A stretch of DNA of 64,000 nucleotides from positions 2,339,001-2,403,000 of the forward strand of contig NZ_CP031188.1 in the NCBI RefSeq assembly GCF_003344925.1, written 5' to 3'. The DNA is from Flavobacterium arcticum. GTDB taxonomy: Bacteria; Bacteroidota; Bacteroidia; Flavobacteriales; Flavobacteriaceae. The first letter of the stretch is position 1, and each line of letters starts with the position of its first letter. Shown here piece by piece: positions 20,877 through 32,132 of the stretch. The position numbers were made by a program, and so were the translations under genes. Under the pieces are notes generated by a model, which did not search any database, was not told the origin of the DNA, and saw only the letters and a list, made by a program, of their open reading frames with translations.

Positions 20877-21473
20877 ATGAGAAATATGAATATTCCAAAA
20901 CCATCTTTAATTTTTATTTTTTTAACGAGTCTTTCTTCACTCTTTGGTTGTTCAGGAAAATCCAATAGCAAAAAAGAAGAGGGAAAATCCGCAGAAGCAT
21001 CTCTTAAAGAAGATAATTCTTATAATGAAATGAGAAATGGAGCACTTACTGTTAAACCTGAACAATTGGGCATTGATATTCCGGAAGATTCCATAGTTGT
21101 TTATGGTATAGTAATGGATTGGGGAATAGATGATAATACCATTGCTACAATTGTTTCTTTTAAAAATGGAGATGCAAGCCTCTATTTAAGTTCTGGAGGA
21201 GGTATTATCGGAGGAGGGCAACACACTAATGTTAATTTTGCTGCTAAAAAATTCGTAGAATTAGCGGAAAACTATATAGTAGAACAAAAACCTGCTATAA
21301 AGATGCCACTACCTGTAAAAGACTATATAATATTTTATATACTTACTAATAAAGGTATTTTTATGCTACATGAAGAAATGAGAAATTTCGAAAATAGTTC
21401 TTCTTTATTACTTCCTCTATTTGAAGAAGGTAATATTGTATTAAGTGAATTAAGAAGTATAAGTGATAAATAA
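20877..21473 (+). CDS. Putative lipoprotein of unknown function
   Basis: 198 residues. The N-terminus (MNIPKPSLIFIFLTSLSSLFGC if started at the ATG 20886) is a lipoprotein signal with Cys at the lipobox, followed by a Ser/Lys/Glu-rich linker. The mature domain contains VYGIVMDWGIDDNTIATIVS, SFKNGDASLYLSSGGGIIGG and a C-terminal helical half. I know similar uncharacterised proteins only as hypothetical. It begins 6 bp after uvrB, so it may be co-transcribed, though lower GC suggests separate history. Confidence 0.7.
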   Translation: MRNMNIPKPSLIFIFLTSLSSLFGCSGKSNSKKEEGKSAEASLKEDNSYNEMRNGALTVKPEQLGIDIPEDSIVVYGIVMDWGIDDNTIATIVSFKNGDASLYLSSGGGIIGGGQHTNVNFAAKKFVELAENYIVEQKPAIKMPLPVKDYIIFYILTNKGIFMLHEEMRNFENSSSLLLPLFEEGNIVLSELRSISDK

Positions 21474-21485
21474 TTATTCAACAAA

Positions 21486-21545
21486 AATCTGTGCTCATCT
21501 GCCTGATCCGTGTTATCTGCGTTCCACAATATCCGCAATCCCGTT
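21486..21545. repeat. Short degenerate repeat element (ATCTGYGTT-like units)
   Basis: Four successive imperfect copies of a 9-11 bp unit (ATCTGTGCTC, ATCTGCCTG, ATCCGTGTT, ATCTGCGTTCC) followed by ATCCGCAATCCCG. The composition is unlike the AT-rich flanks. Similar short ATCTGTGTT-type blocks occur between genes in other Bacteroidota as far as I recall; function unknown. Confidence 0.45.
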
Positions 21546-21635
21546 TGCAGAAAAATTAAAAAAATGCAATTTAGTTAGCATATAATTTACATATACCTAA
21601 TAAAATTTCTTTAATTTGTAAGAAATACAAAGTAT

Positions 21636-22244
21636 ATGCAAATTGACCCGTCGCAAACAAGTCAAAGAAACATCTATAAAATCCTGTCAGGAGCTATAAT
21701 TCCGCGCCCCATAGCATGGGTATCCAGCATCAGCGAAGAAGGGATAACCAACCTTGCCCCGTTTTCATTTTTTAATATGGTAGGCGACGATCCGCCACAT
21801 ATTATGTTCTCTACTGTACGCACGGGCGACAAAAACAAAGACACACTTAATAACGTACTTGCCACAAAGCAATTTGTAGTCAATTTAGCAACGGTAGACC
21901 TTGTCGAGAAAATGAATGATACTTCGGCAAACTTACCTCCTAACGAAAGCGAATTCGATTTTGCAGGGCTTACTCCTGCGCCATCAGTAGTTATAAAACC
22001 ACCCAGAGTACAGGAAAGCCCTGTAAGTATGGAGTGCGAACTGGTACACCATTACAGCCTTGAAGGGCATCAAAACGGTGGTGCTACAATAATGATAGGC
22101 AGGATTGTAATGATTCATATAGATGAATTGATACTGCTAGATGACTTTAAAATAAACATGGAAACCTACAAACCTGTTGCCCGATTAGCAGGGTCTAACT
22201 ACTCAGGTTTGGGAGATATTTTTTCAATAAAAAGACCAATATAA
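21636..22244 (+). CDS. Flavin reductase-like FMN-binding split-barrel protein
   Basis: 202 residues with the flavin reductase-like fold: YKILSGAIIPRPIAWVSS, NLAPFSFFNMVGDDPP, FSTVRTGDKNKDTLNN, then ESPVSMECELVHH. Such proteins either reduce free flavin for a partner oxygenase or bind FMN themselves. It is the first gene of the aromatic operon and ends 4 bp before the monooxygenase gene, so supplying or handling reduced flavin for that enzyme is a reasonable inference. Electron donor cannot be read from sequence. Confidence 0.82.
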   Translation: MQIDPSQTSQRNIYKILSGAIIPRPIAWVSSISEEGITNLAPFSFFNMVGDDPPHIMFSTVRTGDKNKDTLNNVLATKQFVVNLATVDLVEKMNDTSANLPPNESEFDFAGLTPAPSVVIKPPRVQESPVSMECELVHHYSLEGHQNGGATIMIGRIVMIHIDELILLDDFKINMETYKPVARLAGSNYSGLGDIFSIKRPI

Positions 22245-22248
22245 CACA

Positions 22249-24561
22249 ATGAAAATAACAGTAATAGGCGGAGGTCCCGGAGGTTTATATTTCTCCATTC
22301 TTTTGAAAAAGGCAATGCCTGATTATGATGTAAGTGTTTACGAACGTAACAAAGCCGATGATTCTTTTGGTTTTGGCGTAGTATTCTCTGATGAAACCCT
22401 AAGTGAATTCCTTACCCGAGACCCTGATTCGTATGACCTCATTCGCAGTCGCTTTGCCTATTGGGACGAACTGGATGTGGCACGCGATGGCGAAAAAGTA
22501 CGCATTACCGGTAACGGTTTTTGTGGGTGTTCGCGTAAAACCTTATTACAATTATTACAGCAACGTTGTAAAGAGGTAGGTGTTAACCTCAATTTTGAAG
22601 CTAATGTAAAAGATTTATCTCAATTCTCAGATTCTGATATTATTGTGGCTGCCGATGGTATAAATAGTAACATCCGCGAGAAATATGCTGACGATTTTGG
22701 CACAGAAGTACAAATGAAAAGCAATCGCTTTGTATGGATGGGTTCTACTCGCCCATTGGATGCGTTTACCTATTTTTTCAGAAGTACACCTTATGGTACA
22801 TTTGTAGCCCATACCTACCAATATGAAGAAGGTATGAGTACGTGGATATTTGAAACTACAGACGAAACATGGCAAAAAGCTGGTTTTGATGTTACCAATG
22901 AAGAAGACACCATTGCCAAATTATCAGAACTATTTAAAGAAGAGTTAGACGGACACGGTTTAATATCTAATCATTCACATTGGAGACAATTTCCTGCCGT
23001 TACTAATAAAAATTGGCATAAAGACAATATAGTATTACTAGGCGATGCCAAGGCTACGGCGCACTACTCTATAGGCTCGGGTACTAAGCTGGCTATGGAA
23101 TGCGCTATTGCACTAGCCGATTCAGTAATAAAACATACAAATGATATACCCGCTGTTTTTGAAAATTACGAAAAACTACGCCGTAATCGTGTAGAAATGA
23201 TACAGCACGCTGCTAACGTATCGCTTGACTGGTTTGAGCATATGGATAGGCACATGCAACACGATTTTATGAAGTTTGCTTTTAGCACCATGACACGTGC
23301 TAAAAAAGTAACTTTCGAAAACTTAGGTTTGCGCGATGCTTTGTTTACTCAAAAAGTACTGGCAGAATTTAACGAGAAAGAAGGGAATAAAAACCCTAAT
23401 ACAACAGCAGCATTCACACCATTTTCATTACGAGATATGACGCTTGACAACCGTATTGTAATGAGCCCGATGGAGCAATATTCTGCTGAAGAAGGCTTGG
23501 TTAACGACTGGCATTTAATGCATTATGGTTCGCGCGCTACAGGTGGTTTGAGTCTAATTTTAACCGAAGCTACTGCCATATCTCCTACTGGTAGAATAAC
23601 TTTAGGCTGTGCAGGCATATGGTCTAAAGAACAGGTTATTGCATGGAAACGAACTGTTGATTTCGTACATCAAAATAGTACTGCTAAAATAGGGGTACAA
23701 ATTGGGCATTCTGGTCGAAAAGGCGCAATGCAATTTTATTGGGATGCTAAAAATAAAGCTATCGATAATGCTTGGGAATTACTATCAGCTTCCCCTATTC
23801 CATTTAGTGATACCATGGCTATTCCTAGAGAGATGACTATAGCTGATATGGATACTATAACTGCTGAGTTTGTTAACGCTGCTAAAAATGCAGATGAAGC
23901 AGGTTTTGATATGATAGAGCTACAGGCGCATCATGGATTTTTATTAGCCTCTTTCTTATCTCCATTAACTAATATTCGAGCGGATGAGTTTGGTGGAAGT
24001 ATCGAAAACCGATTAAAATTCCCATTACGAGTATTTAACGCCATGCGAGAAATATTCCCAAAAGGAAAGCCTATGTCTGTACGTATTTCGGCATCTGATT
24101 GGGCTGAAAATGGTATAACAGAAGATGATGTCCTAGCTATTGCCGAAGCTTTTAAACAAGTTGGGGCAGATATAATAAATGTATCTACAGGATTAACTGT
24201 AGAAAATGAAAAACCAGCTATTGGTAGAATGTGGCAAACACCATTCTCTGATATGGTACGTAATGAGGTAAATGTACCTACTATTACCGCAGGATACATA
24301 CAAGATATAGATCAAATTAACACTATATTACTTAATGGTCGTGCTGATTTAGTAGCATTAGGTAAAACACTGTTATTAGATCCTTATTTTGTGCGTAATG
24401 CACAAGCTTATGAACAGCATAAGGCTAAAAACTTAGAAGAGCTAGGAATACCTAAACCATATATGTCGGCAACACCTCACTTGTACCCATATATAGCGGG
24501 ACAACGTAGAAATGCTGAAAACATGAAAAAAGCATTGAAACCATTAACGCATAAAAAGTAA
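22249..24561 (+). CDS. 2-aminobenzoyl-CoA / salicylyl-CoA 5-monooxygenase fused to Old Yellow Enzyme domain
   Basis: 770 residues, the size of 2-aminobenzoyl-CoA monooxygenase/reductase and salicylyl-CoA 5-hydroxylase. Residues about 1-375 are a FAD aromatic hydroxylase (VIGGGPGG at 5-12; LLGDAKATAHYSIGSGTKLA). Residues about 383-740 are a YqjM-like FMN domain (FTPFSLRDMTLDNRIVMSPM, GVQIGHSGRKG, FLSPLTNIRADEFGGS). Expected chemistry is 5-hydroxylation of the CoA-activated ring. Odd: in the reductase domain the usual HAAHGY is QAHHGF, so Gln559 replaces the first substrate-binding His and Phe564 the proton-donor Tyr (YqjM His164 and Tyr169). The domain may therefore not reduce the ring, keeping it aromatic for the downstream dioxygenase. 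Confidence 0.88.
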   Translation: MKITVIGGGPGGLYFSILLKKAMPDYDVSVYERNKADDSFGFGVVFSDETLSEFLTRDPDSYDLIRSRFAYWDELDVARDGEKVRITGNGFCGCSRKTLLQLLQQRCKEVGVNLNFEANVKDLSQFSDSDIIVAADGINSNIREKYADDFGTEVQMKSNRFVWMGSTRPLDAFTYFFRSTPYGTFVAHTYQYEEGMSTWIFETTDETWQKAGFDVTNEEDTIAKLSELFKEELDGHGLISNHSHWRQFPAVTNKNWHKDNIVLLGDAKATAHYSIGSGTKLAMECAIALADSVIKHTNDIPAVFENYEKLRRNRVEMIQHAANVSLDWFEHMDRHMQHDFMKFAFSTMTRAKKVTFENLGLRDALFTQKVLAEFNEKEGNKNPNTTAAFTPFSLRDMTLDNRIVMSPMEQYSAEEGLVNDWHLMHYGSRATGGLSLILTEATAISPTGRITLGCAGIWSKEQVIAWKRTVDFVHQNSTAKIGVQIGHSGRKGAMQFYWDAKNKAIDNAWELLSASPIPFSDTMAIPREMTIADMDTITAEFVNAAKNADEAGFDMIELQAHHGFLLASFLSPLTNIRADEFGGSIENRLKFPLRVFNAMREIFPKGKPMSVRISASDWAENGITEDDVLAIAEAFKQVGADIINVSTGLTVENEKPAIGRMWQTPFSDMVRNEVNVPTITAGYIQDIDQINTILLNGRADLVALGKTLLLDPYFVRNAQAYEQHKAKNLEELGIPKPYMSATPHLYPYIAGQRRNAENMKKALKPLTHKK

Positions 24562-24572
24562 CACTCAAAGTG

Positions 24573-26189
24573 ATGAAACATTACGACGATAATTTTACGC
24601 ATGATAATTTACCGCCCGCTTCATTACAAGCAGAGTGTTTTACAGGGCATTCAGATTTTGAATTTCCTGATAACTTAAATTGTGTAGAGCAATTACTAGA
24701 CAGACATATTGCTGAAGGCAATGGAGATAAAGTTGCTATTCGCACTTTTGATATTACATGGACATATAACGATTTATATGAAAAAGCGAATCAAATTGCA
24801 CATGTATTAAAAGACGATCTTGGTTTTGTTTCAGGAAACAGAGTATTGATACGTTCAGCTAATAACCCTATGTATGTAGCCTGTTGGTTTGGTATATTAA
24901 AAGCTGGCGGAGTTGTAGTAGCAACGATGCCTTTGTTACGCGAAAAAGAACTTAGCGTAATGACTGAAAGTGCCAAAATATCGCATGCCTTTAGTGATTA
25001 TAGACTCGAAGATGATATACTTGCCGTAAAATCGCCTTTTTTAAAGCATGTTATTTCTTTTAATGGTACTGGACAAGGAACTTCAAAACTAGAGGTTTTA
25101 ATGGGTAATAAACCCAAAACGTTTAATAACTACACTACAAAATCAGATTCGGTTGCGATAATCGGTTTTACATCGGGTACTACAGGGAAACCTAAAATGA
25201 CAGCGCATTATCATAAAGATATTTTATTGATATGTGAGGCATTCCCTAAATATTCGTTACAGCCCACAACAGAAGATGTATTTATAGGCAGCCCGCCACT
25301 TGGTTTTACCTTCGGACTTGGCGGATTGGTATTGTTTCCATTTTATTTTGGGGCATCTACTTTTTTACTAGAAAAACCATCGCCTGATTCATTGCTTCAA
25401 GCAATACAAGATTATAAGGTAACGATTTGTTTTACCGCCCCTACTGCTTGGCGTGTAATTACTACTAAGGTAGTTGATTATGATATTTCGTCATTACGAA
25501 AATGTGTATCGGCAGGTGAAACATTACCAATAAAAGTTTGGGATGACTGGCACGATGCCACAGGATTAAAAATAATAGATGGTATTGGTGCTACCGAGAT
25601 ACTCCATATCTTTATATCTTCGAACGAAGAAACGATGCGAAAAGGAGCCACAGGCTTGCCTATTCGTGGATATGAAGCCAAAATTGTAGATGCTAAAGGT
25701 AATGAAGCCCCTACAGGAGAAGCAGGACGGCTTGCCGTGCGTGGCGTTACAGGCTGTAAATACCTAGCTAATGAAGAGCGACAGCAAAAATATGTAGAAA
25801 ACGGATGGAATATTACAGGAGATATTTTCCGTAAAGACGAAGATGGTTATTACTGGTTTGTAGCACGTGGCGACGATATGATTATCTCGTCAGGTTATAA
25901 TATTTCGGCAATAGAGGTAGAAAATGTGTTACTAATGCACGATGCCATTACAGAGTGTGCTGTTGTAGGAATACCTGATGAGGAACGCGGTATGCTAGTA
26001 TGTGCTTATATAGTACTTAAAGAAAAGGACAAGGCTAACGATGTATTTACAAAAGAAATACAAGACTGGTTTAAAGCATCGGCAGCACCTTATAAATATC
26101 CGCGAAAGATATGTTATATGGAAGCATTACCAAAAACAGAGACAGGAAAAATTCAACGATTTAAACTTAAAAAAATAATACAAGCGTAA
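24573..26189 (+). CDS. Aryl-CoA ligase, probably 2-aminobenzoate-CoA or salicylate-CoA ligase
   Basis: 538 residues from ATG 24573; a GTG one codon earlier is also possible. Acyl-adenylate enzyme of the benzoate-CoA ligase type: ATP loop FTSGTTGKPK (near 200), IDGIGATEIL, RGDDMIISSGYNIS, and the C-terminal catalytic Lys526 in TETGKIQR. The N-terminal LNCVEQLLDRHIAEGNGDK is typical of 2-aminobenzoate-CoA ligases. It would activate the free acid with ATP and CoA for the monooxygenase encoded immediately upstream. Its stop overlaps the thioesterase ATG (TAATG). Substrate choice between anthranilate and salicylate is inference. Confidence 0.87.
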   Translation: MKHYDDNFTHDNLPPASLQAECFTGHSDFEFPDNLNCVEQLLDRHIAEGNGDKVAIRTFDITWTYNDLYEKANQIAHVLKDDLGFVSGNRVLIRSANNPMYVACWFGILKAGGVVVATMPLLREKELSVMTESAKISHAFSDYRLEDDILAVKSPFLKHVISFNGTGQGTSKLEVLMGNKPKTFNNYTTKSDSVAIIGFTSGTTGKPKMTAHYHKDILLICEAFPKYSLQPTTEDVFIGSPPLGFTFGLGGLVLFPFYFGASTFLLEKPSPDSLLQAIQDYKVTICFTAPTAWRVITTKVVDYDISSLRKCVSAGETLPIKVWDDWHDATGLKIIDGIGATEILHIFISSNEETMRKGATGLPIRGYEAKIVDAKGNEAPTGEAGRLAVRGVTGCKYLANEERQQKYVENGWNITGDIFRKDEDGYYWFVARGDDMIISSGYNISAIEVENVLLMHDAITECAVVGIPDEERGMLVCAYIVLKEKDKANDVFTKEIQDWFKASAAPYKYPRKICYMEALPKTETGKIQRFKLKKIIQA

Positions 26190-26614
26190 TGGAAAACGCA
26201 TTTATAAAAAAAGAAAAAGTACGCTTTCAGCATGTAGATTATGCAGGGATAGTTTTTTATCCTCGCTTTTTAGAGATGTTGAACTGCTTAGTAGAAGATT
26301 TTTATGAAGAGGCTTTAAATATGCCTTTCAAAAATTTACATGAAACAGGCGGAATACCTACCGTCGATTTAAAAATACAATTTAAAAAAGCAGCACGATT
26401 AGGCGATGAACTAACAAAGTCTCTTTGGATTAAGAATCTTGGTGGAGCTTCTATGCATTGTGGGTTTAAATTTGAACATGAAGATGGTTCTACTTGTCTT
26501 GAAGGAGAAGTAACCCTAGTTCGTGTAGAGTTTTCAGATGATAGAAAAGGCATAAAAGCAAGCGGATTCCCTGATGATATGCGTACAATATTAGAAAAAT
26601 ATATTATTACTTAA
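26189..26614 (+). CDS. Hotdog-fold acyl-CoA thioesterase (4-hydroxybenzoyl-CoA thioesterase family)
   Basis: 141 residues. The N-terminal VRFQHVDYAGIVFYPRFLEM carries the family catalytic Asp17 and the hotdog helix start; later VDLKIQFKKAARLGDEL matches the central strand. In this operon it most likely removes CoA from the 5-hydroxylated ring acid, giving free gentisate or 5-hydroxyanthranilate for the dioxygenase. Overlaps the ligase stop by one base, implying coupled translation. Confidence 0.88.
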   Translation: MENAFIKKEKVRFQHVDYAGIVFYPRFLEMLNCLVEDFYEEALNMPFKNLHETGGIPTVDLKIQFKKAARLGDELTKSLWIKNLGGASMHCGFKFEHEDGSTCLEGEVTLVRVEFSDDRKGIKASGFPDDMRTILEKYIIT

Positions 26615-26676
26615 TAGTGATAAAAATAATAGTACCACGAATACAGTTCGATGGTATGATTTAAAATTTATAATCA

Positions 26677-27657
26677 ATGTTAGATTTACCAAAATTTAAA
26701 GCTGCCGCAGTACAAGCTTCTTCTGTTTTTCTTGATGTAGATGCAACGGTAGAAAAATCGTGTGCTATAATAGCCGAAGCAGCAAGAAATGGGGCTTCGT
26801 TAGTAGCATTTCCTGAAGTATTTGTAGCAGGCTATCCCTACTGGAACTGGATTATGACACCTATACAGGGTAGCAAATGGTATGAAAAGTTATATCTAAA
26901 TTCTATAACGGTACCAGGTCCTGAAACAGACAGACTTTGCGAAGCTGCAAAAGAACATAATTGCCATGTGGTAATTGGTGTTAATGAACGCGGGCAAAGT
27001 ATGGGCGAAATATATAACACCAACCTTATTATAGATAATAAAGGAAAACTAATAGGCAAGCACCGCAAGTTAGTACCTACTTGGGCAGAAAAATTAACAT
27101 GGACAGGTGGCGATGGTTCGTCACTTAAAGTATATAACACAGAGATTGGTCCTATAGGAACATTAGCTTGTGGAGAGAATACCAATACCTTGGCACGCTA
27201 TGCGCTGCTTTCACAAGGCGAATTAATACATGTAGCTAATTATATTTCATTACCAGTTGCTCCGCCAGATTATAATATGGCAGAGGCTATAAAAATACGC
27301 GCGGCAGCGCACTCTTTTGAAGGTAAACTATTCACAATAGTGTCCTGTTCTACTATCACAAAAGAGATTATAGACGAAATGAAGGAAGACGTACCTAACG
27401 CAGAGGAATTATTGACACGTAAAAATAGTGCTTTTACTGGTTTTCTTGGTCCTAATGGAGCTACTATAGGAGAACCGCTTATTGATGATGAAGGTATTGT
27501 ATATGCTGATATTGATTTATCTAAATGTATACAACCAAAGCAAATGCACGATATACTAGGGCATTACAACCGCTTTGATATTTTTGACTTACGCGTAAAT
27601 ACTGCGCCAAAGAAGAATATTACTTTTATGGATGGTGATACATCCGAAGAAAAATAA
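26677..27657 (+). CDS. Nitrilase-superfamily carbon-nitrogen hydrolase
   Basis: 326 residues with the complete catalytic set: Glu47 (AFPEVFVAGYPYW), Lys131 (GKHRKLVPTWAE) and Cys165 (GTLACGENTNTLARYAL). The family hydrolyses nitriles or amides through a Cys thioester. The CGENTN variant resembles nitrilases more than typical omega-amidases. No nitrile-forming enzyme is in the operon. Two roles fit: releasing ammonia from an amide made when an amino-substituted ring is cleaved next to its NH2 group (preferred, since it uses every gene), or converting an aromatic nitrile to the acid that enters the pathway. Sits between thioesterase and dioxygenase genes. Confidence 0.85.
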   Translation: MLDLPKFKAAAVQASSVFLDVDATVEKSCAIIAEAARNGASLVAFPEVFVAGYPYWNWIMTPIQGSKWYEKLYLNSITVPGPETDRLCEAAKEHNCHVVIGVNERGQSMGEIYNTNLIIDNKGKLIGKHRKLVPTWAEKLTWTGGDGSSLKVYNTEIGPIGTLACGENTNTLARYALLSQGELIHVANYISLPVAPPDYNMAEAIKIRAAAHSFEGKLFTIVSCSTITKEIIDEMKEDVPNAEELLTRKNSAFTGFLGPNGATIGEPLIDDEGIVYADIDLSKCIQPKQMHDILGHYNRFDIFDLRVNTAPKKNITFMDGDTSEEK

Positions 27658-27688
27658 ATTTTGCTAACTACTATAAACTAAACTTAGT

Positions 27689-28792
27689 ATGGAAACAAAA
27701 CATGATGATAGTGTAATAGGTCGTGCTAGAGTACAAGACACTCCAGAACTAGAAGCTTATTATAAAGAATTAGAAAATCTTGGCGCAGGAGCGCTATGGA
27801 CAGTTGCTAATGATATTGAACCTTGGGAACCCCGCCCGTCATCTATACCAATGTTGTGGAAATATGATGATTTACGTAGTCTTGTAATAAAATCGTCAGA
27901 ACTGGTAACACCAGAGCAAGCAGGGCGTCGTGTGGTATATCTTGTTAATGATAAGCGTAAGGATGTAAGTGCCGCTGTGGGCTGGTTATATACTGGTATA
28001 CAGGTAACACGCCCTGGCGAAAGTACTCCTGCACATAAACACAAAGCTGCTGCACTCCGTTTTATTATGGAAGGCGAAGGTGGTTATACCGTTGTAGATG
28101 GTAATAGAATAACGCTTGAGGTAAACGATTTTGTTATTACCCCAAACAGCACTTGGCACGAGCATGGTGTTGCAGAAGATGGTAAAACCTGTATTTGGCA
28201 AGATGGGTTAGATATACCATTAATAAACGCCTTAGAAGCTAATGATTATGCAGTACTAGATGGTAAACAAGAGCTTACAGCACCTGAAAATTTTTCACCA
28301 TTAGTTTATGGTGGTGTGGGGCTTGTACCTGCCGACCAAGAATGGGATAAACCTTACTCTCCCCTATTTAAATATTCATGGAAAAAAGTATATCCTGCCT
28401 TATTAGAAGCTGCCCAAGTGCACGAAGGTTCGCCTTTTGATGGTATTTTAATGCAGTACACTAATCCTGCTACTGGAGGTCATGTAATGCAAACTATGGG
28501 GGCGTCTATGCAACTATTACGCGCAGGCGAACACACTAAGGCACACAAACATACAGGATCTTTTGTATATCAATGTGCCAAAGGAAAAGGTTACTCAATA
28601 ATAGGCGGGAAACGCTTTGACTGGAAAGAGCGCGATATTTTTTGCGTTCCATCATGGGTATATCATGAACATGTAAACTTATCTGAAACAGAAGATGCTT
28701 GTTTATTCTCGTTTAATGATTTACCAGTTATTACTTCACTAGGATTGTACCAAGAAAAAACACACCCTGACGGATATCAAACTGTTGAGTAA
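27689..28792 (+). CDS. Gentisate 1,2-dioxygenase-type bicupin ring-cleavage enzyme
   Basis: 367 residues, the length of gentisate dioxygenases. Two cupins: the first holds HKH at 116-118 (ESTPAHKHKAAALRFIMEGE) and WHEHG at 156-160 as the Fe(II) ligand set; the second has KAHKHTGSFVYQCAKGKG and YHEHVN. The family cleaves the ring between the carboxyl-bearing C1 and the adjacent C2. With gentisate the product is maleylpyruvate; with 5-hydroxyanthranilate, C2 carries nitrogen and an amide would be expected. The N-terminal PELEAYYKELENLGAGALW is typical of the family. Confidence 0.88.
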   Translation: METKHDDSVIGRARVQDTPELEAYYKELENLGAGALWTVANDIEPWEPRPSSIPMLWKYDDLRSLVIKSSELVTPEQAGRRVVYLVNDKRKDVSAAVGWLYTGIQVTRPGESTPAHKHKAAALRFIMEGEGGYTVVDGNRITLEVNDFVITPNSTWHEHGVAEDGKTCIWQDGLDIPLINALEANDYAVLDGKQELTAPENFSPLVYGGVGLVPADQEWDKPYSPLFKYSWKKVYPALLEAAQVHEGSPFDGILMQYTNPATGGHVMQTMGASMQLLRAGEHTKAHKHTGSFVYQCAKGKGYSIIGGKRFDWKERDIFCVPSWVYHEHVNLSETEDACLFSFNDLPVITSLGLYQEKTHPDGYQTVE

Positions 28793-28878
28793 ATCACGTT
28801 TACAGGATTCAGTCACAGTTATTAGTTCAAATACAATAAACACAACTTAATAATAAGCATAACACACAAACTTAAAAA

Positions 28879-29796
28879 ATGAAATTAGTTACTTACAAAA
28901 TAAATGATACTACACATCAGCTAGGTTTTATAAAAGATGATGTTATTATAAATGCAGAGCAATTAGGGCAACTTAAAAACAATGCATTACCTGCTACTAT
29001 GCTCGAGTTTATCGATCTTGGTAAAGAAGGTATTGAAAAAGCTACAACGCTTATAGCCACTGCTACAACTGAGGAGTTAAAAAAGTGTTCTGTATCGCTT
29101 GCGGGTGCTAAACTTATGGCGCCAATACCTAAACCTAGAAAAAACATTATAGGTATTGGATTAAATTATACAGAGCACGTTGCCGAATCGGCACGTACAT
29201 TAGATACTTCTAAAGATTTACCACAACAACCTGTTATTTTTTCAAAACCACCTACAGCAGTTACAGGTACAGGAGAAAATATCGTTCATAATCAAGACAT
29301 CACTAAACAACTGGATTATGAAGTTGAGCTTGCTGTAATAGTAAGTAAAAGAGGTAAAAACGTACCTAAAAAAGACGCTATGGACTATGTATATGGTTAT
29401 AGTGTTATAAACGATATTAGCGCAAGAGATTGCCGTCGTTCTGGGCAATGGATAGTGTCTAAAGGACAAGACACCTTTGCTCCTATGGGACCTATTCTTG
29501 TTACTGCCGATGAAGTAGCAGACCCACACAATTTAAATCTTTCATTAAAGTTGAACGGAGAAGAGCGTCAAAACTCAAATACTAAGTTTATGCTTTTTAA
29601 TATCAATGATTTAATTAATGATATTAGTACAGTATTCACTATAGAAGCCGGCGATATTATAGCAACAGGTACACCTGCTGGTGTAGGTGCAGGTAGAAAC
29701 CCACAAGCTTTTATGTGGCCTGGTGATATTGTAGAAGCTACTGTAGAAGGTATTGGTACAATTACAAATACTATTGTAGATTCTAAGGATATTTAA
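28879..29796 (+). CDS. Fumarylacetoacetate hydrolase-family protein (acylpyruvate hydrolase)
   Basis: 305 residues: an N-terminal domain of about 95 residues, then the FAH fold (PRKNIIGIGLNYTEHVAES). Metal ligands are visible as Glu148 and Glu150 (DYEVELAVIV) and Asp179 (VINDISARDCR). KGQDTFAPMGP and AGDIIATGTPAGVGAGR are family signatures. It should split an acylpyruvate into pyruvate plus a C4 acid. Because the next gene encodes a maleate isomerase and no maleylpyruvate isomerase is present, the substrate may be the maleyl or maleamyl form. Confidence 0.87.
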   Translation: MKLVTYKINDTTHQLGFIKDDVIINAEQLGQLKNNALPATMLEFIDLGKEGIEKATTLIATATTEELKKCSVSLAGAKLMAPIPKPRKNIIGIGLNYTEHVAESARTLDTSKDLPQQPVIFSKPPTAVTGTGENIVHNQDITKQLDYEVELAVIVSKRGKNVPKKDAMDYVYGYSVINDISARDCRRSGQWIVSKGQDTFAPMGPILVTADEVADPHNLNLSLKLNGEERQNSNTKFMLFNINDLINDISTVFTIEAGDIIATGTPAGVGAGRNPQAFMWPGDIVEATVEGIGTITNTIVDSKDI

Positions 29797-29861
29797 GAGT
29801 CATTTACAGCCTACAAAATTGTACTATAAGAAAATAATAAACTAAAGCTATACTTTAAGTA

Positions 29862-30617
29862 ATGTCAGTTAAACGATACAAAATAGGACAAATAGTACCC
29901 AGCTCTAACATAACAATGGAGACTGAGATACCAGCACTTTTACACTCACGCGAAACCATAACACCAGAGCGATTTACATTCCACTCTAGTCGAATGCGAA
30001 TGAAAAAAGTGACTAAAGAAGAGCTAGAAGCAATGGATGCTCAAAGCTTAAAATGCGCACAAGAACTGAGCGATGCCCGTGTAGATGTTATGGGCTATGC
30101 CTGCCTTGTAGCCATCATGAGTATGGGGCGTGGTTATCACTGCGTATCCGAAACTAATTTACACGAAGAAACTGTAAAAAATGATGCCCCTACACCTATC
30201 GTTACTAGTGCAGGTGCATTAATAAACGGGCTAAAAGTATTAGGGGCTAAAAAAGTGGCTGTAATAACACCATACATGAAGCCACTTACACAAATGGTGG
30301 TAGACTATATAGAACATCAAGGCTTTGAGGTGGTAGACTTTATTGCGCTCGAAATACCTGATAATTTAGAAGTCGCAGCTCAAGACCCAATGAACCTCTT
30401 GGATATTTACAAAAAACTGAATCTTGAAGGCGTAGATGTACTTGTAGCTTCAGCTTGTGTACAAATGCCCTCTCTTGAAGCTATAGATGCTATTGAGAAA
30501 GAAATTGGTATACCTGTTACCTCTGCAGCCGTTTGTACCACCTATGAAATGCTAAAGAAGCTAAATTTAGATACTAAAATACCTATAGGCGGTGCTTTAT
30601 TGAGTGGTAAGTATTAA
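29862..30617 (+). CDS. Maleate cis-trans isomerase (Asp/Glu racemase superfamily)
   Basis: 251 residues. Two active-site cysteines are at Cys81 (MGYACLVAIMSMG) and Cys199 (LVASACVQMPSLEAID), 118 residues apart, the same spacing I recall for Cys76/Cys194 of Nocardia maleate isomerase. The family converts maleate to fumarate by transient thiolate addition; NicE of nicotinate breakdown is a member. As the last operon gene it would feed fumarate to the TCA cycle. The related arylmalonate decarboxylases normally lack one of these cysteines, so maleate isomerase is preferred. Confidence 0.88.
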   Translation: MSVKRYKIGQIVPSSNITMETEIPALLHSRETITPERFTFHSSRMRMKKVTKEELEAMDAQSLKCAQELSDARVDVMGYACLVAIMSMGRGYHCVSETNLHEETVKNDAPTPIVTSAGALINGLKVLGAKKVAVITPYMKPLTQMVVDYIEHQGFEVVDFIALEIPDNLEVAAQDPMNLLDIYKKLNLEGVDVLVASACVQMPSLEAIDAIEKEIGIPVTSAAVCTTYEMLKKLNLDTKIPIGGALLSGKY

Positions 30618-31097: not shown

Positions 31098-32132
31098 TTA
31101 TAAATTTACTCTCCAATTAACTTCGGGATTATACCGCAATGTACCACTAAAAACCTCTAGAGGTGCAGCAAAATTATTAGTATATAAACCACCCGTACCT
31201 AACCCTTGTGGCATTGGACTGTTTTTCAAAAACGTCCACTGCGCAATAGCGTTTAACCCTATATTGCTTTCTAGCGCTGAGGTTACCCACCAACCAATAT
31301 TTAATGCTTCGGCTATTGTAATCCATTCTTGTGTACCATGAAAACCACCTACCAAACTAGGCTTTAAAATAATGTATTGTGGCTTTATTTTTTGTAACAA
31401 CGCCTTTTTATCATCATTACCAAACACACCTATCAACTCTTCATCTAAAGCAATGGGTATTGGGGCACTTAAACATAGTACTGACATGCTGTCATACTGC
31501 TTTTTTTTAATCGGCTGTTCTATACTATGTATTTTAAATTCAGATAATTGTATTATTTTACTTAAAGCATTATTTGCACCGAAAGCGCCGTTAGCATCTA
31601 CACGAATTTCGATAGTTTCAGCATCAAAATTAGCTCTAATAGCAGCTAATAAATCGAGTTCTTTTTGAAAATCGATTGCTCCAATTTTTAATTTTATACA
31701 ATTAAAACCTTGTTGTATTTTTTCCTCTATCTGCTGCTTCATAAACTGCTCATCGCCCATCCAAACCAAACCGTTAATAGAAATATTTTTCTTTCCTTTT
31801 GTAAAATCTGAAGGAAATAAAAGGTAGGGTGATTCACTCTCTAACGAATGAAAAGCCATTTCAACTCCAAACTGTATTGAAGGGAATTCTATCAATTCTT
31901 GCCATAATTGTTCTACCCCCAAATGAATATTATCACACGTCCATTTTAGCTTCTCTTCATAGTCGGGTCTGTCATCAATACTAAGCGAACGTAATATGCC
32001 ACACTCCCCTATTCCGCGCTTACCATTTTGTTCAAGAATAATAAACCAAGTTTCCTTTTCAGTCAAAACGCCCCGCGAAGTTCCGCTAGGGCGTTTAAAG
32101 TTGAGTGTATATTTTTTATAACTTGCTTTCAT
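31098..32132 (-). CDS. menC: o-Succinylbenzoate synthase
   Basis: 344 residues, enolase superfamily. It dehydrates SHCHC to o-succinylbenzoate in menaquinone synthesis. Visible: KxK motif in NCIKLKIGAID, metal ligands in IRVDANGAFG, IHSIEQPIKK and IALDEELIG, and the second catalytic Lys in YIILKPSLVGG. The N-terminal capping domain begins with FKRPSGTSRGVLTEKETW, typical of Bacteroidota MenC. Last gene of the leftward menB-PH-PH-menA-MBL-menC group. Confidence 0.93.
   Translation of the reverse strand: MKASYKKYTLNFKRPSGTSRGVLTEKETWFIILEQNGKRGIGECGILRSLSIDDRPDYEEKLKWTCDNIHLGVEQLWQELIEFPSIQFGVEMAFHSLESESPYLLFPSDFTKGKKNISINGLVWMGDEQFMKQQIEEKIQQGFNCIKLKIGAIDFQKELDLLAAIRANFDAETIEIRVDANGAFGANNALSKIIQLSEFKIHSIEQPIKKKQYDSMSVLCLSAPIPIALDEELIGVFGNDDKKALLQKIKPQYIILKPSLVGGFHGTQEWITIAEALNIGWWVTSALESNIGLNAIAQWTFLKNSPMPQGLGTGGLYTNNFAAPLEVFSGTLRYNPEVNWRVNL

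Follow-up and report, generated by a model that had tools for sequence, protein, structure and literature searches.

The window discussed here is a stretch of 64,000 nucleotides of Flavobacterium arcticum (contig NZ_CP031188.1, positions 2,339,001 to 2,403,000), whose genome is a single contig of 2.97 Mb. The open reading frame (ORF) listing of the window gives eight genes between positions 21636 and 30617, all on the plus strand, which encode in order a flavin reductase-like protein (FRed), a monooxygenase fused to an old-yellow-enzyme (OYE) half (MO_OYE), an aryl-CoA ligase (Lig), a hotdog thioesterase (TE), a nitrilase-superfamily hydrolase (Nit), a gentisate-type dioxygenase (GDO), a fumarylacetoacetate-hydrolase-fold enzyme (FAH) and a maleate isomerase (MaiA). 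The gaps between consecutive genes are 4, 8, -1, 62, 31, 86 and 65 bases, and this close spacing suggests that all eight are co-transcribed. Judged from sequence comparisons, it is quite probable that the operon degrades anthranilate by way of ring cleavage, with fumarate, pyruvate and ammonia as end products; anthranilate itself arises in the breakdown of tryptophan and indole. The original prediction of eight rightward genes of these families with gaps from -1 to 86 bp agrees with the ORF list and with the Pfam, NCBIfam and PDB matches.

Conservation and layout of the operon

Of 299 sampled genomes of the genus, 122 carry an orthologue of the nitrilase (E 1e-90 or better), and the nearest named relatives of the window's Nit are from Flavobacterium. 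The original prediction suggested a genome search for the eight-gene set, and it was recovered complete, in one order and on one strand, in 18 of 20 loci around nitrilase hits; the exceptions are L079 (genome G412), where only TE and Nit are present, and L061, which comes from another genus. Among 80 named loci fetched via GDO, a set sharing at least four loci with the former, 67 contain all eight genes in one order. The flanking genes of the window are common to only two of the 18 full loci (L062 and L063), hence the operon has been conserved in changing surroundings. The recurrent order and strand across the loci of relatives mean that the eight-gene set is no accident.

Thirteen named loci are incomplete. 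Seven of them lie on stretches shorter than 10 kb and were excluded from follow-up, while the remaining six (L117, L126, L127, L128, L144 and L162) together with G412 were searched genome-wide for Nit, MO_OYE, FRed and GDO. At the locus level FRed alone is missing from L126 and L144, MO_OYE and FRed are missing from L117, L127 and L128 (Lig is absent from L117 but present at L127 and L128), and L162 and G412 are without more genes. All four sought genes were nevertheless present in all seven genomes, so gene loss was rejected as an explanation. They stand on one contig, in the usual order and with wider gaps, in L126, L127, L144 and L162, and are spread over two contigs in L117 and L128 and over three in G412. 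Since the genes stay together in the genome even where the operon is stretched or split, it is likely that they serve one pathway. In F. piscinae (L162, genome G1014) Nit and GDO share a contig of 65.8 kb at a distance of about 10 kb, and no amidase was found among the five ORFs scanned in the interval; apparently unrelated epimerase, alpha/beta hydrolase, DUF418 and MBOAT genes were noticed there (L207 = G1014:C7:33001-53000).

Some relatives carry additional genes. In five of the 20 loci (L067-L069, L071 and L073) a gene for a 526-aa glutamate synthase-domain protein (PF01645) stands between Lig and TE. Such insertions (glutamate synthase-domain, alpha/beta hydrolase, aspartyl protease, transposase-like and methyltransferase-like) were considered as clues to function and proved uninformative. 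Flavobacterium-like operon contigs also appear under Bifidobacterium breve, Sphingobacterium or Chryseobacterium titles (L101, L139, L158, L159); the titles of these metagenome-assembled genomes may be wrong.

Families were named with Pfam and NCBIfam profiles, and the best NCBIfam scores quoted here fall below the curated cut-offs, so the names hold at family level only. MO_OYE reaches 994.1 bits against PRK08255 (NF006101, salicylyl-CoA 5-hydroxylase/oxidoreductase; cut-off 1078), Lig 344 against the benzoate-CoA ligase family (375), GDO 296 bits against the gentisate 1,2-dioxygenase model TIGR02272 (442) and Nit 246 bits against the Nit6803 nitrilase model TIGR04048 (502.6). In MO_OYE an FAD monooxygenase is joined to an OYE-family domain, as in 2-aminobenzoyl-CoA monooxygenase/reductase. 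The closest solved relatives of MaiA are maleate cis-trans isomerases, the His-rich cupin motifs of GDO lie at residues 114, 155, 284 and 325, and the Glu-Lys-Cys triad of Nit is intact in all 106 aligned copies (some loci having been fetched twice). The N-terminus of TE could be read in the sequence as of the HxDxxGxV type, which we take to be a thioesterase motif. Coordinates are listed in Table 1.

Table 1. Genes and OYE-half positions of the operon (window coordinates)
Feature	Position	Strand	Basis
FRed, flavin reductase-like split-barrel protein, 202 aa, role uncertain	21636..22244	+	PF01613, 90 bits; best PDB 3bpk, next 4z85 (2-nitrobenzoate nitroreductase)
MO_OYE, predicted anthraniloyl-CoA 5-monooxygenase with fused old-yellow-enzyme half, 770 aa	22249..24561	+	FAD_binding_3 and Oxidored_FMN; context-typed relatives; trees
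MO_OYE codon 559, Gln opposite TsOYE His172	23923..23925	+	context-typed alignment
MO_OYE codon 561, second context-dependent OYE position (H/N/G vs A)	23929..23931	+	column comparison
MO_OYE codon 649, third context-dependent OYE position (L/N/Y/E vs Q)	24193..24195	+	column comparison
Lig, aryl-CoA ligase, predicted anthranilate-CoA ligase, 539 aa, GTG start	24570..26189	+	AMP-binding; best PDB 4wv3
TE, 4HBT hotdog thioesterase, predicted 5-hydroxyanthraniloyl-CoA thioesterase, 141 aa	26189..26614	+	PF13279; HxDxxGxV-type N-terminus
Nit, nitrilase-superfamily hydrolase, predicted maleamate (or maleamoylpyruvate) amidase, 326 aa	26677..27657	+	PF00795; E47/K131/C165
GDO, gentisate-type bicupin dioxygenase, predicted 5-hydroxyanthranilate 1,2-dioxygenase, 367 aa	27689..28792	+	best PDB 3bu7, 545 bits
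FAH, fumarylacetoacetate-hydrolase-fold C-C hydrolase, 305 aa	28879..29796	+	PF01557, 235 bits; best PDB 8sky
MaiA, predicted maleate cis-trans isomerase, 251 aa, Amdase/Asp-Glu racemase family	29862..30617	+	PDB 4fq7, 347 bits; 4fq5, 343 bits

Upstream, 162 bases separate the operon from the end of a 198-aa ORF, and downstream a convergent gene occupies 31098-32132. The promoter scan gave 26 promoter-like sites where 34.5 were expected, that is no excess; the motif TTG-TAnnTTTG has zero matches in 21301-21640, and the terminator scan found no such site past the last gene on the plus strand.

Predicted route and choice of substrate

The predicted gene families match each step of the following scheme. 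Lig would activate anthranilate to anthraniloyl-CoA, the monooxygenase half of MO_OYE would hydroxylate C5 with the altered OYE half leaving the product aromatic, and TE would release 5-hydroxyanthranilate. GDO would cleave the ring between the carboxyl- and amino-bearing carbons and turn the amine into a primary amide (maleamoylpyruvate), whereupon FAH would remove pyruvate to leave maleamate, Nit would convert the amide to maleate and ammonia (the order of these two steps may be reversed) and MaiA would isomerise maleate to fumarate. This sequence from Lig to MaiA, with removal of the amide, was put forward in the original prediction, and the comparisons described below support it. FRed was left out of that scheme, and it still stands outside the catabolic steps; its recurrence beside GDO-FAH in three 21-kb loci (L171-L173), in which MO_OYE was not detected, suggests that it may act with the dioxygenase in the ring-cleavage half. 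It might be guessed that FRed keeps the easily oxidised p-aminophenol intermediate reduced, for example by re-reducing a quinone imine formed in air.

Anthranilate and salicylate had both been offered as substrates, and anthranilate is now much better supported, owing to the relatives of the ligase, the entry genes found elsewhere, the changed site in the OYE half and the inheritance of the nitrilase together with the other genes. The best PDB match of Lig is the anthranilate-CoA ligase 4wv3 (309 bits), whereas benzoate-CoA ligases reach at most 239 bits. Lig is also 49% identical to the ligase adjoining MO_OYE on a plasmid of Arthrobacter Rue61a, which was equated with ARUE_113p00220 by its position before ARUE_113p00230; anthranilate-CoA ligase activity is reported for ARUE_113p00220 (PMC3534580; papers given by PMC number are cited from excerpts of their text).

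Entry genes of another type accompany the same enzymes in two relatives. Caballeronia sp. SBC1 (L164) carries indolepyruvate-oxidoreductase (IOR)-type alpha and beta subunit genes, TE, MO_OYE, GDO, FAH, Nit, MaiA, MarR and a cyclase-family gene. In G135, from another genus of the family (L061, L082), one side encodes a StyA-like monooxygenase, a StyB-like reductase, an SDR protein, MO_OYE, a cyclase, an IOR-alpha-like enzyme and TE, and the divergent side a MetA-type outer-membrane protein, Nit, GDO, FAH, MaiA, a luciferase-like oxygenase, IclR and FRed; its StyA, StyB and IOR matches are below curated cut-offs, and no ligase homologue was found in the 60 kb examined. The cyclase-family gene is presumably an isatin hydrolase, and the StyA-type and SDR-type genes are assumed by us to belong to indole routes. 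Indole would thus pass through isatin to isatinate, and oxidative decarboxylation by the IOR-like enzyme would give anthraniloyl-CoA directly, which would make a ligase dispensable; cyclase and 2-oxoacid-oxidoreductase genes could in this way deliver anthraniloyl-CoA in the ligase's place. Isatin, isatinic acid and anthranilic acid are reported in auxin degradation by iad loci, with IadA/IadB as IOR subunits (PMC9613470), and indole-to-anthranilate genes with a MetA-type porin have been described (PMC12538310). As an observation in its own right, G135 holds an apparently complete indole-to-fumarate set, in which the IOR-like enzyme replaces the CoA ligase and two genes are flavin reductase-like.

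As to the source of anthranilate in the host, it could come from tryptophan or from outside the cell. Genome candidates bearing on the source of ANTHRANILATE are genes for tryptophan dioxygenase, kynureninase and 3-hydroxyanthranilate dioxygenase. Tryptophan dioxygenase (271/299) and kynureninase (276/299) are near-universal in the genus, and among nitrilase carriers they occur in 120 and 121 of 122, respectively (counted by eye, the last eight and three negatives being deduced from the positive lists). A tryptophan link within the genus was therefore set aside as uninformative: it does not single out the carriers and neither supports nor opposes anthranilate. Near beta-oxidation-type relatives of MO_OYE, one or both of these genes were seen in three of 11 annotated loci (Ruegeria, Thalassospira and Aminobacter), which speaks for anthranilate as the substrate.

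The nitrilase has a task only with an amino substrate, cleavage beside the amino-bearing carbon giving a primary amide. It is unlikely that anthranilate is used but loses its ammonia before cleavage, 5-hydroxyanthranilate becoming gentisate as drawn for Nocardia opaca while Nit acts elsewhere. Although the Nocardia route is drawn via gentisate in a 2015 review (PMC4539516) and gentisate is reported in an indole degrader (PMC6221969), no family known for aryl-amine deamination is found among the operon genes, and a nitrilase fold is established as suiting an amide, not an aryl amine. A shade less likely still is salicylate, which would run through salicylyl-CoA, gentisyl-CoA, gentisate and maleylpyruvate to maleate and pyruvate, and then to fumarate. 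It would give six genes of the operon a step, leaving out only Nit and FRed, and is favoured by the NCBI name of the fusion family and by the naming of the GDO relative 3bu7 as a gentisate dioxygenase. It was nevertheless rejected, for it leaves idle a nitrilase that is kept in all seven broken-operon genomes as well as in complete loci, the ligase is closest to an anthranilate-CoA ligase, the entry genes elsewhere point to isatinate and anthraniloyl-CoA, and the fusion protein stays below the cut-off of the salicylyl-CoA model. That the substrate is a related 2-amino aromatic acid or a nitrile-bearing aromatic on which Nit acts first is very improbable, since, for all the resemblance of Nit to true nitrilases, it belongs to the ring-cleavage part, occurs with GDO-FAH-MaiA in three phyla and also under other entry genes, and no operon gene hints at a nitrile.

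The old-yellow-enzyme half of the fusion

A difficulty for the anthranilate route lies in the OYE half, and it escaped the original prediction. The enzyme of the Azoarcus type makes a ring-reduced product (PMC3534580, PMC4539516), and the ring reduction is presumably performed by its OYE half. If this half were active here the ring would be reduced and the ring-cleavage dioxygenase useless, yet the site is altered. In the OYE alignment TsOYE His172 corresponds to Gln559 and His175 is kept as His562, so that MO_OYE lacks the intact substrate-binding histidine pair of 2-aminobenzoyl-CoA monooxygenase/reductase. The two histidines of TsOYE are, as we take it, those that hold the carbonyl oxygen of the substrate.

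MO_OYE was found in 115 of 137 loci, and in these its genomic context was typed. Glutamine is present in all 93 loci of ring-cleavage context (GDO and FAH nearby), which hold 88 distinct sequences as some genomes were fetched twice, and histidine in all 13 loci of beta-oxidation context. The remaining nine comprise five with glutamine (short Flavobacterium stretches) and four with histidine (Rue61a, Rhodococcus, a Gemmatirosa stretch and a short G1009 duplicate). Beta-oxidation homologues are missing from 90 of the 93 ring-context loci, with a lone stray one in the stretch of each of the other three. The 93 loci are not 93 independent events: most of the 88 sequences are from Flavobacterium, and only three loci (Caballeronia, Novosphingobium and Cupriavidus) lie outside Bacteroidota. 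The locus L080 (G526), divergent within the genus sample (MO_OYE 56%, Lig 54%, TE 47%), keeps all eight genes and the glutamine.

On a tree of 28 sequences the glutamine rows fall in three places, namely Flavobacterium with G135, Novosphingobium beside Thalassospira-Paracoccus, and Caballeronia with Cupriavidus among other beta-oxidation types. This demands a minimum of three changes between histidine and glutamine, of which two are firmly parallel and the third, the tree being unrooted, falls on the branch that joins the Flavobacterium group to the other sequences; a single clade of all glutamine rows is rejected (p value of the approximately unbiased test, p-AU, 6e-10). The two contexts are told apart by three of the 730 well-filled columns, 559, 561 and 649, each of which belongs to the OYE half; 15 disjoint columns were obtained initially, and 12 were removed because gaps left fewer than 26 of the 28 rows filled. 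When 42 partitions were compared, in each of which a further tip and a further pair were added to the Flavobacterium group, a strict column of one letter versus one letter appeared in the true partition only. Loosely separating columns are more numerous in three other partitions (13, 6 and 4 versus 3), so the strict column alone is informative. The site of TsOYE Cys25 was tried as a context marker and dropped, as it varies in both contexts.

The reductase half has thus probably been disabled or changed in parallel where an aromatic product must survive, and it may still serve to bind FMN or to support the fold. A homologue of the monooxygenase half alone was noticed at L200 (G843:C15:750099-751325), with in-frame stops in the matched stretch and the OYE half unmatched.

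Ring-cleavage genes elsewhere and relation to known systems

Nit, GDO, FAH and MaiA stand together also in Ruegeria pomeroyi, Sulfitobacter THAF37, Shinella and on an Embleya plasmid; in R. pomeroyi a His-type MO_OYE belongs to a separate beta-oxidation cluster. Over 374 residues the R. pomeroyi dioxygenase SPO_RS20405 has the same sequence as PDB 3bu7, a protein named gentisate 1,2-dioxygenase, and the window's GDO is 62% identical to it. A paper by Chen et al. from 2008 reportedly treats the 3bu7 protein as a gentisate dioxygenase. It is likely that GDO can turn over gentisate, and use of 5-hydroxyanthranilate is predicted for it. The 3bu7 protein is encoded at L163:15045-16169, where the gene neighbours suggest 5-hydroxyanthranilate as the natural substrate. 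That locus (R. pomeroyi NC_006569.1, 104868-133794) and L168 (Sulfitobacter THAF37) combine TE, IOR, aldehyde dehydrogenase and class III aminotransferase genes with Nit-GDO-FAH-MaiA in a cluster without a monooxygenase, which might degrade a 5-hydroxylated indole, for example serotonin or 5-hydroxyindole-acetate. In Arthrobacter Rue61a (L179) and Rhodococcus NJ-530 (L203) a His-type MO_OYE lies near FAH-family, small cupin, acyl-CoA thioesterase-domain and RidA genes, in Rhodococcus also near tryptophan dioxygenase, and a third, different lower pathway seems to exist there.

Several observations weigh against the anthranilate scheme. The closest solved relative of GDO, 3bu7, is named and published as a gentisate dioxygenase, and those of Nit are nitrilases and not maleamate amidases. 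No kynureninase lies near the operon in 100 loci, and the host genome has the above gene for 3-hydroxyanthranilate dioxygenase. On plasmid pPNAP04 of Polaromonas naphthalenivorans (L169) a 55%-identical nitrilase stands by IclR and a branched-chain ABC transporter, no GDO, FAH or MaiA being found in the stretch; this nitrilase likely has another substrate. Of the MO_OYE loci with ring-cleavage context three are proteobacterial, and only that of Caballeronia includes both Nit and MaiA. Cupriavidus shows MO_OYE-GDO-FAH with no Nit, MaiA or TE in 21 kb and with adjoining transposase genes, and Novosphingobium has no MaiA, Lig or IOR homologue in 29 kb. In the Novosphingobium, Aminobacter and Tistrella loci a distant CN hydrolase (33-36%) adjoins a FRed-like gene near GDO-FAH, with no close Nit and no MaiA found, and in S. 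alexandrii GDO-FAH-FRed occurs without a CN hydrolase. Finally, the exchange of histidine for glutamine may alter rather than abolish reduction.

Two routes were known before, the Azoarcus CoA route and a gentisate-type route from biochemistry; new is that the OYE half expected to reduce the ring has an altered active site. The Azoarcus-type 2-aminobenzoyl-CoA pathway likewise joins a ligase to a fused monooxygenase-OYE acting on an anthraniloyl-CoA-type substrate, but it continues through beta-oxidation genes, whereas here TE, GDO, FAH, Nit and MaiA follow and the OYE histidine is glutamine. No enoyl-CoA hydratase, acyl-CoA dehydrogenase or hydroxyacyl-CoA dehydrogenase gene is among the operon's eight. 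A gentisate-type anthranilate route was proposed for Nocardia opaca (Cain 1968) and Alcaligenes In3 (Claus and Kutzner 1983), as cited in PMC4539516 and PMC6221969. It shares gentisate-type ring cleavage and, in Nocardia, the 5-hydroxyanthranilate intermediate, while the excerpted reviews name no genes for it, the 2018 one describing its enzyme as unreported and its genes as not revealed (PMC6221969); CoA activation and amide removal after cleavage are additions here. G135 and Caballeronia have entry genes similar to parts of the iif/ipo-dho indole and iad auxin routes to anthranilate, which in the excerpts end there or continue via catechol (PMC12538310, PMC9613470), in contrast to ring cleavage of a 5-hydroxylated acid. 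Among the matches listed in the literature searched, whose scope left out most subscription journals, the gene set was not found in print.

Two further systems resemble the lower part of the scheme. The hbz genes of Pseudomonas alcaligenes presumably form a gentisate pathway with an FAH-family maleylpyruvate hydrolase and a maleate hydratase, alike in a gentisate-type dioxygenase followed by C-C hydrolysis and different in that a nitrilase and a maleate isomerase follow here. The nicotinate (nic) lower pathway also leads from maleamate through maleate to fumarate, and MaiA is close to 4fq7; the maleamate amidase there is of the isochorismatase fold, the predicted one here of the nitrilase fold.

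With somewhat better than even confidence for the whole, it is proposed that nitrogen is lost after ring cleavage as an amide through a nitrilase-fold maleamate amidase; that the switch from histidine to glutamine, partly parallel in Flavobacteriaceae, Novosphingobium and Caballeronia/Cupriavidus, makes a plain 5-hydroxylase which steers anthraniloyl-CoA to ring cleavage and not to beta-oxidation; and that the same cassette serves anthranilate, indole/isatin and perhaps 5-hydroxyindoles. The operon is a candidate for the genes of the anthranilate route proposed from biochemistry in 1968, and would offer a complete and testable gene set for it in a cultivable genus. MO_OYE is a possible example of a fusion enzyme redirected by altering one of its halves, and the family name salicylyl-CoA 5-hydroxylase is poor evidence for a salicylate pathway. 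Structure 3bu7, deposited as a gentisate dioxygenase, would gain another likely physiological substrate.

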